NCBI GenBank assembly: GCA_004321915.1
Contig: SCQE01000036.1
Coordinates: 1 to 56,966, forward strand
DNA length: 56,966 nt
Reading direction: 5' to 3'
From: Nitrospirota bacterium
Lineage (GTDB): Bacteria > Nitrospirota > Thermodesulfovibrionia > Thermodesulfovibrionales > Dissulfurispiraceae
The notes under the pieces are model-generated. The model saw only the letters and a program-made list of their open reading frames with translations, searched no databases and was not told the DNA's origin. A program made the translations under genes and the position numbers. This document shows, piece after piece, positions 6,227 through 50,659 of the stretch; position 1 is the first letter of the stretch; each line of letters starts with the position of its first letter.

Positions 6227-6265
6227 ATTTTCACTTCACCCCCTTAGCAGGGCAAACGCACTATG

Positions 6266-6446
6266 TTCGTCAGGGGCAAATTTCCTCCGTTCAGAAGCTG
6301 CGTTTTGACGGTTCTAAATGCTCGCTCCGCTACAGCCGTGCAACTCGGCCTTCGGCCTCAGACACTCACGGCTGTTTAACGCTGCGCTTCGCAAAGAACC
6401 GTTTCCAAAACTCCGCTATTCACTCCGGAAACCTGTCCCTGACGAA
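6266..6446. repeat. 181-bp nested palindromic repeat, copy 1
   Basis: A 139-bp core (6288-6426) matches the core at 49950-50086 almost throughout. Within the core are nested inverted repeats: GTTTTG with CAAAAC, ACGGTTCT with AGAACCGT-like sequence, ACAGCCGTG with CACGGCTGT, and a central GGCC-TTC-GGCC hairpin. Outside the core, the arms TTCGTCAGGG and CCCTGACGAA pair with each other over about 20 bp, but these arms have no similarity to the arms of copy 2. The whole unit can fold into a long cruciform or RNA hairpin. It lies 40 bp after the sigma-54 regulator and could terminate transcription. Confidence 0.85.
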
Positions 6447-6639
6447 TAATTTGGAAAAATAGTGAGTTTGTCCTAACCCCCTAGGACAAGGACAAAAGTT
6501 GCACATTGACTGTATCATATTATTTTTCAATCGGATAGCTTGTAATAATTCTAAATCTCTTTAGGTTTGTAAAATTTCTTACCACCCCTGCCTTATGCCT
6601 GTCAATAGGTAACCTGTTGAATATTAAGCAACTTTATTC
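6447..6639. other. Intergenic, upstream region of the sigma-54 promoter
   Basis: There are about 190 bp between the palindromic repeat and the -24/-12 promoter. No open frame is convincing. This is where upstream activator (enhancer) sites for an NtrC-type regulator would be expected; I see no obvious perfect dyad that I would name as one. Confidence 0.4.
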
Positions 6640-49926: not shown

Positions 49927-50107
49927 TAAGGATAAGGCGGTATTTTTTTCGTTCAGGAGCTGCGTTTTGACGGTTCTAAATGCTCATTCCGCTACAGCCG
50001 TGCAACTCGGCCTACGGCCTCAGACACTCACGGCTGTTTAACGCTCATTTCGCAAAGAACCGTTACAAAACTCCGCTATTCACTCCCAAAACACCGCCTT
50101 ATCCTTA
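49927..50107. repeat. 181-bp nested palindromic repeat, copy 2
   Basis: The core (49950-50086) repeats copy 1 (6288-6426) with only scattered changes and two single-base indels. The outer arms TAAGGATAAGGCGGT and ACCGCCTTATCCTTA are perfect inverted repeats of 15 bp, extended by further T/A pairs, and are unrelated to copy 1's arms. The total length equals copy 1. It fills the gap between convergent thiC and the HD gene, whose stop codon lies in its last three bases; a bidirectional terminator function is likely. Confidence 0.88.
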
Positions 50108-50659
50108 CAACGGCTCTTTGAAGAAGACCAGCCATTCGTCGAACTGTTTTAATTTTTCATTGCCGTAACGGGCCATCTCTTCACGGATTCGAGGCACGGT
50201 TTTTTCGCTCGACAGGCTGTGTTCGTTTTTGGAATAAAACTTGTCCGCAAAGCATATTATCTTTTCTTCGAGCGTTACTGGCAGCATGTTCCTTTGTGGC
50301 AGAGGCAAATTGTTTTTTACAATATCATCCAAGCTGATGCCGACTCCGACATGCCGTTCGCAGACGGGGGCGTAATCTTCGAAGCCTTCTTTTTCGAGCA
50401 GTTCTCTTCCCAGATAGCCATGGGCAAGATATGGCTTATCACCGAAGCATCCGAGTCGCGGTTCATCGGTCAGGAATATTCCGATGTCGTGCAGCATCGA
50501 GGCGTTTTTTATGAATAAGATATCCGGTTTCATCTCGATAACCCTATCGGCAACCTGTAATGCTTTTTGTGTTACAAGTTCACTATGCTTTATCAGGAAG
50601 TGATATGCCTTTGAATCGGGCGGATAGTATTTTTCGATAATTTTTATTGGTCCCGGCAT
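50105..50659 (-). CDS. HD-domain phosphohydrolase
   Basis: The protein has 184 residues. Metal ligands: His in FLIKHSELV, HD in SMLHDIGIF, then HGYLG and CERHVGVG later, the pattern of HD-domain proteins (TIGR00295-like, from memory). Likely a nucleotide or phosphomonoester hydrolase in the cytoplasm. Its substrate is unknown. Convergent with thiC and divergent from the E1 operon. Confidence 0.82.
   Translation of the reverse strand: MPGPIKIIEKYYPPDSKAYHFLIKHSELVTQKALQVADRVIEMKPDILFIKNASMLHDIGIFLTDEPRLGCFGDKPYLAHGYLGRELLEKEGFEDYAPVCERHVGVGISLDDIVKNNLPLPQRNMLPVTLEEKIICFADKFYSKNEHSLSSEKTVPRIREEMARYGNEKLKQFDEWLVFFKEPL

Follow-up and report, generated by a model that had tools for sequence, protein, structure and literature searches.

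Integron attC sites are imperfect hairpins in which structure is conserved above stem sequence, with conserved R boxes at the base of the stem. Bacterial MITEs, including ERIC, Correia/NEMIS and RUP, have been reviewed (PMC2229807), as has YPAL (RU-2) of Yersinia, a 168 bp palindromic mobile element with target-site duplications (TSDs) of variable length whose targets span or adjoin a dyad symmetry (PMC2229807), and REP and BIME sequences are mobilized by RAYT (Y1) transposases (PMC3733652). Here, we analyze two hairpin elements carried by a stretch of 56,966 nucleotides from a Nitrospirota bacterium (contig SCQE01000036.1), the whole of which we call the window. Both are members of a widespread and apparently undescribed family of small mobile hairpin DNA in the Nitrospirota, and we consider it likely that this family consists of phylum-wide, non-coding, palindromic, MITE-like mobile elements whose arms are inserted along with the core, with one strand folding and pairing being kept during spread.

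A sequence-only reading of the window had reported two 181-bp elements with a related core and with arms that differ between copies and pair within each copy. These elements are real: the two cores share 92% identity over 144 bp, and each element has its own self-pairing arms (Table 1). Complementarity between the inner arms of copy 1 is high, although we measure 17/20 nt (85%) where 18/20 had been claimed, and the near-perfect pairing of the copy 2 arms holds over 20 nt (19/20, 95%). The extent of 181 bp is too short for copy 1, in which an additional, outer pair of arms also pairs in the minus-strand fold; similar outer arms are present in the same genome in L002 and, on the left side only, in L020. 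Minus-strand folds of both copies are more stable than those of shuffled sequences (z of −6.8 for copy 1 and −8.7 for copy 2; 0/200 shuffles as good), and the predicted fold energy of copy 2 is −82.4 kcal/mol on the minus strand vs −68.6 kcal/mol on the plus strand. Going by the translations, copy 1 is flanked by a sigma-54-type response-regulator gene and a response-regulator gene, and copy 2 by a thiC-like gene and a convergent HD-domain-like ORF. An ordinary TPP riboswitch (RF00059; 46818–46922 of the window, plus strand) lies upstream of the thiamine genes preceding copy 2.

Table 1. Coordinates of the two hairpin elements and their parts in the window
Feature	Position	Strand	Basis and remarks
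Copy 1	6266–6446		Arms and core
Copy 1, outer left arm	6253–6264		Pairs with 6459–6470; minus-strand fold; outer arms shared with L002 and L020
Copy 1, inner left arm (basal helix P1)	6266–6285		17/20 complementary to 6427–6446
Copy 1, core	6289–6432	−	Minus is the folded strand; sequence comparison, fold and covariation
Copy 1, helix P2 side	6302–6307	−	GTTTTG, partner 6406–6411; sequence and fold
Copy 1, helix P3 side	6308–6315	−	ACGGTTCT, partner AGAACCGT at 6395–6402
Copy 1, helix P4 side	6332–6340	−	ACAGCCGTG, partner CACGGCTGT at 6367–6375; fold and covariation
Copy 1, apical hairpin P5	6347–6357	−	GGCC (6347–6350) with GGCC (6354–6357); fold and covariation
Copy 1, inner right arm	6427–6446		Complementarity to 6266–6285
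Copy 1, outer right arm	6459–6470		Minus-strand fold
Copy 2	49927–50107		Arms and core
Copy 2, left arm (P1)	49927–49946		19/20 complementary to 50088–50107
Copy 2, core	49951–50092	−	Minus is the folded strand; sequence comparison and folds
Copy 2, right arm	50088–50107		Provides the stop codon (50105–50107) of the convergent ORF 50105–50659

A genome-wide search with the core, as the sequence-only reading had advised, returned 22 matches in the window's own genome, including many full-length copies and several with truncations or internal deletions (L019, L021 and L022), with arms shared among some loci. Using a covariance model of the core, we found the family in 68 of 296 sampled Nitrospirota genomes and 41 of 135 genera. 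Copy number ranges from 0 to ~50 among related genomes, the upper end being genome G028 with 104 arm matches and ~50 copies. A single exact pattern scanned across a bacterial genome collection matched only in a Nitrospirae bin; the plasmid collection searched held no match to the element, nor did viral contigs scanned with one strict pattern. None of the curated covariance models of Rfam 15 overlapped the element, and the open-licence literature that we searched contained no description of this Nitrospirota hairpin family.

For recent copies, arms and core are one mobile unit and insert together. Copy L073 of genome G018 is missing from two genomes of the same genus, G026 and G006. The empty site in G026 reads ...CACATAAAACACTACAATAAAG and the filled site in G018 reads ...CACATAAAAC[TGTGATCCAGCG...GGATTGGG]TAAAACACTACAATAAAG, such that TAAAAC, a 6-bp target, is present once in G026 and duplicated in G018. 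Arms and core are absent together from the G026 site, which has no such hairpin; a weak, unrelated hairpin-capable sequence lies directly beside it. Further copies show duplications of 5–8 bp outside their arms (0/20,000 permutations as good in a permutation test on 15 alignable copies), and such duplications were found again in G028, where each copy was listed in both orientations. Terminal inverted repeats, CC(G/C)A(G/A)ATCCAGCGATAAGG, are present at both ends of copies in G018, G011 and G028. The arms had been described as specific to each copy, which holds between the two copies in the window but not across the family: in the window's genome, GCGATAGGGATAAATTCC arms are common to three loci (L008, L010 and L012) and another arm sequence to L001, L002 and L020, while in other genomes the arm sequence ATCCAGCGATAAGGAT recurs (with ≤2 mismatches, 104 matches in G028 alone) and borders copies at numerous loci of G018 and related genomes.

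These observations bear on the proposal that the core is a mobile unit inserting into the loops of existing hairpins, with arms that belong to the target. Arms that differ between copies and pair within each copy are what this proposal would produce, and it could also draw on the arm-only mini-hairpins L116–L118 and on the hairpins nested inside copies of G028 and G018. The mini-hairpins, however, bear the family's own arm sequence, which makes them simpler to read as deletion derivatives than as plain target hairpins. A plain hairpin should also remain where the core is missing, and the G026 site carries neither arms nor core; identical arms recur with the core at unrelated loci, and the helices of the core covary just as the arms do. 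Movement of core and arms together had been named in advance as the outcome that would count against the proposal, and it is what recent copies display. Because the presence or absence of their arms goes with that of the core and their TSDs lie outside the arms, insertion into hairpin loops is refuted for recent copies, and we give the proposal as a whole very little credence. The window's copies are older and lack a close empty site; the comparison for copy 2 was with more diverged loci, those of five more distant relatives that retain the thiC/HD neighborhood without the core or matching arms. Their insertion as one unit is a putative assignment made through family membership.

Several copies are modified forms of the hairpin. 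The mini-hairpins L116, L117 and L118 consist of arms alone (e.g., ATCCAGCGATAAGGAT plus a short loop) and are probably internal-deletion derivatives. Many copies in G028, among them L130–L135, have an additional apical hairpin (CCCCAAAAAGTC...GACTTTTTGGGG), and this modified version seems to have been amplified there. In G018, the stems of L076, L077 and L078 contain the same ~125 bp insert, which has inverted ends of its own (CAGGCAATGGTAT...ATACCATTGCCTGA) and forms a nested palindrome. Another palindromic repeat family (GTCATTGCGAG...GCAATCTC) adjoins several copies (flanks of L008, L012 and L021) and in L119 (196–323) lies within the element's arms, replacing the usual core.

The other explanation offered by the sequence-only reading, that the arms evolve under a pairing constraint, is borne out and extends to the whole element. 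Pairing between a copy's own arms averages 14.5 over 77 copies, vs 7.6 when arms are taken from different copies and 6.5 when they are shuffled. In an alignment of 51 copies, which are related and were fitted to the model structure in a way that favors pairing, two-sided change is seen in some copies for 34 of 35 core pairs, and 97.1% of core cells are paired vs 36–43% when partners are slid, with no shuffle reaching the observed values. Helix P3 provides an example: ACGGTTCT/AGAACCGT of copy 1 corresponds in other copies to ACAGCTCT/AGAGCTGT and AAAGTTCT/AGAACTTT. The internal loops stay unpaired across copies, and variability in the alignment is greatest at the base of the stem. The opposition of a conserved core to variable arms thus gives way across the wider family, since core helices covary too: from these alignments, the element is best described as one hairpin whose helices all drift while remaining paired, the basal helix fastest, and the arms would look copy-specific because this helix drifts fast yet stays paired. 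In the core, read on the minus strand, G-U is far commoner than A-C (69:10), which points to the minus strand as the folded one; in the basal helix P1 the ratio is 43:33 after removal of similar arms, an excess that is not significant. Motifs of the GAGCGA and GCGAAG type recur in the minus-strand internal loops (e.g., L144, 4045–4189); they could form tandem G-A pairs and may be the feature that is recognized.

The constraint apparently acts in the propagating lineage and not at each resident locus, a qualification that the earlier claim of constrained arms now needs. At orthologous residents (a small sample of five loci in six genome comparisons), changed core pairs comprise 1 doubly compensated, 8 in which a one-sided change preserved pairing and 15 broken, a pattern close to that expected for unconstrained single changes. 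Between random pairs of copies, which are more diverged than orthologs and not independent, the corresponding counts are 2557, 596 and 537, and this pattern departs from expectation. With resident pairs mostly broken and pairs between unrelated copies mostly compensated, it seems that selection maintains pairing in the lineage that propagates, with decay of resident copies. Some constraint in place is possible, given one orthologous locus at which divergence between genomes is lower in the element than in its flanks. A further site, flanked by argH and a lipoprotein gene in three Thermodesulfovibrio-like genomes, had seemed to hold eight compensated pairs in G193 vs the other two; it was dropped because a neighboring site has a tandem pair with differential loss, and the G193 copy may thus be non-orthologous. 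In this tandem pair (L146, 6555–6861, in G218), one copy resembles the single copy of G193 and the other that of G126, as under differential loss.

The same resident loci help in weighing two further explanations of the pairing. The folded strand could be a host-function RNA or a cis-acting hairpin maintained in place at each locus, a reading consistent with the G-U strand asymmetry, with the persistence of copies at orthologous loci in different species of the same genus and with the one resident locus that is less diverged than its flanks. It sits poorly with the broken pairs that predominate in resident orthologs and with a copy number that falls to zero in some related genomes; moreover, orientation to neighboring genes, as counted from crude ORF calls and with weak overall bias, is inconsistent (26 copies antisense to both neighbors, 11 sense to both, 22 divergent and 13 convergent), which disfavors a cis-acting RNA function, and we regard maintenance for the host as unlikely. 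Arm complementarity might instead be kept by templated repair of the palindrome, through template switching across the hairpin, and not by selection. At one fixed locus (L031/L087), two neighboring P1 pairs show two-sided changes, and P1 is both the fastest-changing helix and one whose G-U/A-C ratio is near symmetric after deduplication, as such repair would have it. Yet repair should correct residents, which mostly carry broken pairs; it is blind to strand, contrary to the skewed G-U/A-C ratio of the core, and the internal loops persist unpaired, so that we find this mechanism decidedly improbable.

Among the arm matches listed for seven genomes, mostly drafts, no autonomous copy (an arm pair flanking 0.6–5 kb) was found, and no transposase was traced to the element. 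An association with Y1/RAYT transposases was rejected from a comparison of draft genomes: G001, G014 and G023, all with many copies, have no match to the Y1 transposase family PF01797, and G016 has 13 PF01797 matches and zero element copies.

We propose an element of ~180–220 bp whose arms form the basal helix and whose insertion would leave a 5–8 bp target duplication outside the arms, as in recent copies of same-family genomes. The strand that is minus in the window is predicted, with support from covariation, to form a long hairpin in which internal loops separate about five helices. From the contrast between compensated pairs among copies and broken pairs among residents, we infer that helix sequence is nearly free, that pairing is maintained in whichever lineage keeps propagating, which would keep new copies foldable, and that copies decay after insertion. 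A requirement for the folded strand, as ssDNA or RNA, in the element's spread is the most likely cause, and the folded strand is probably needed in this way. More tentatively, and in our estimate on the doubtful side, the family could represent a phylum-wide class of hairpin elements in which folded ssDNA or RNA is the transposition substrate, recognized via its conserved internal loops and not its stem sequence, thereby combining attC-like or REP-like recognition with a short target duplication; recognition of the folded strand as substrate would lead to structure being selected in the propagating lineage only and decaying in residents. The striking idea of a hairpin-jumping element is thus replaced by a testable one, in which helix sequence is near free and folding is kept in the spreading lineage, though apparently not in residents. 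If this is confirmed, compensatory changes in the family would form a natural series with which to ask what enzyme reads the folded strand in transposition. It also carries a caution, as copy-specific complementary arms need not imply hairpin targeting.

The element resembles bacterial MITEs and has most of their defining features. Like them, it is ~100–200 bp, non-coding and multicopy, with long hairpin transcripts, terminal inverted repeats and TSDs (PMC2229807). It is short, recurs in its genomes (the 22 matches and ~50 copies given above) and has no conserved coding gene, being too short for a transposase, and the TAAAAC duplication at L073, empty in G026, together with the permutation test documents its TSDs and empty site. 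Unlike them, it lacks TA ends and a traced autonomous partner, and its stems covary widely between copies and across the phylum. With attC sites it shares an imperfect hairpin whose structure is kept more than its stem sequence, but its stem base is the most variable part, with no conserved R boxes, and its insertion leaves a TSD. Like REP/BIME, which are extragenic palindromes recognized as folded strands (PMC3733652), it is palindromic; REPs, however, measure 20–40 bp, whereas the Nitrospirota element measures 180–220 bp, has TSDs and abounds in genomes without a Y1 match. By analogy, and as compared from its description, YPAL of Yersinia is the closest described element: both are palindromic and mobile with TSDs of varying length, and YPAL inserts at or beside dyad symmetry, while the one clean insertion of the Nitrospirota element, a single site, lies beside a hairpin-capable sequence. 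What sets the Nitrospirota family apart is the extent of its stem covariation and the apparent confinement of this covariation to the propagating lineage.
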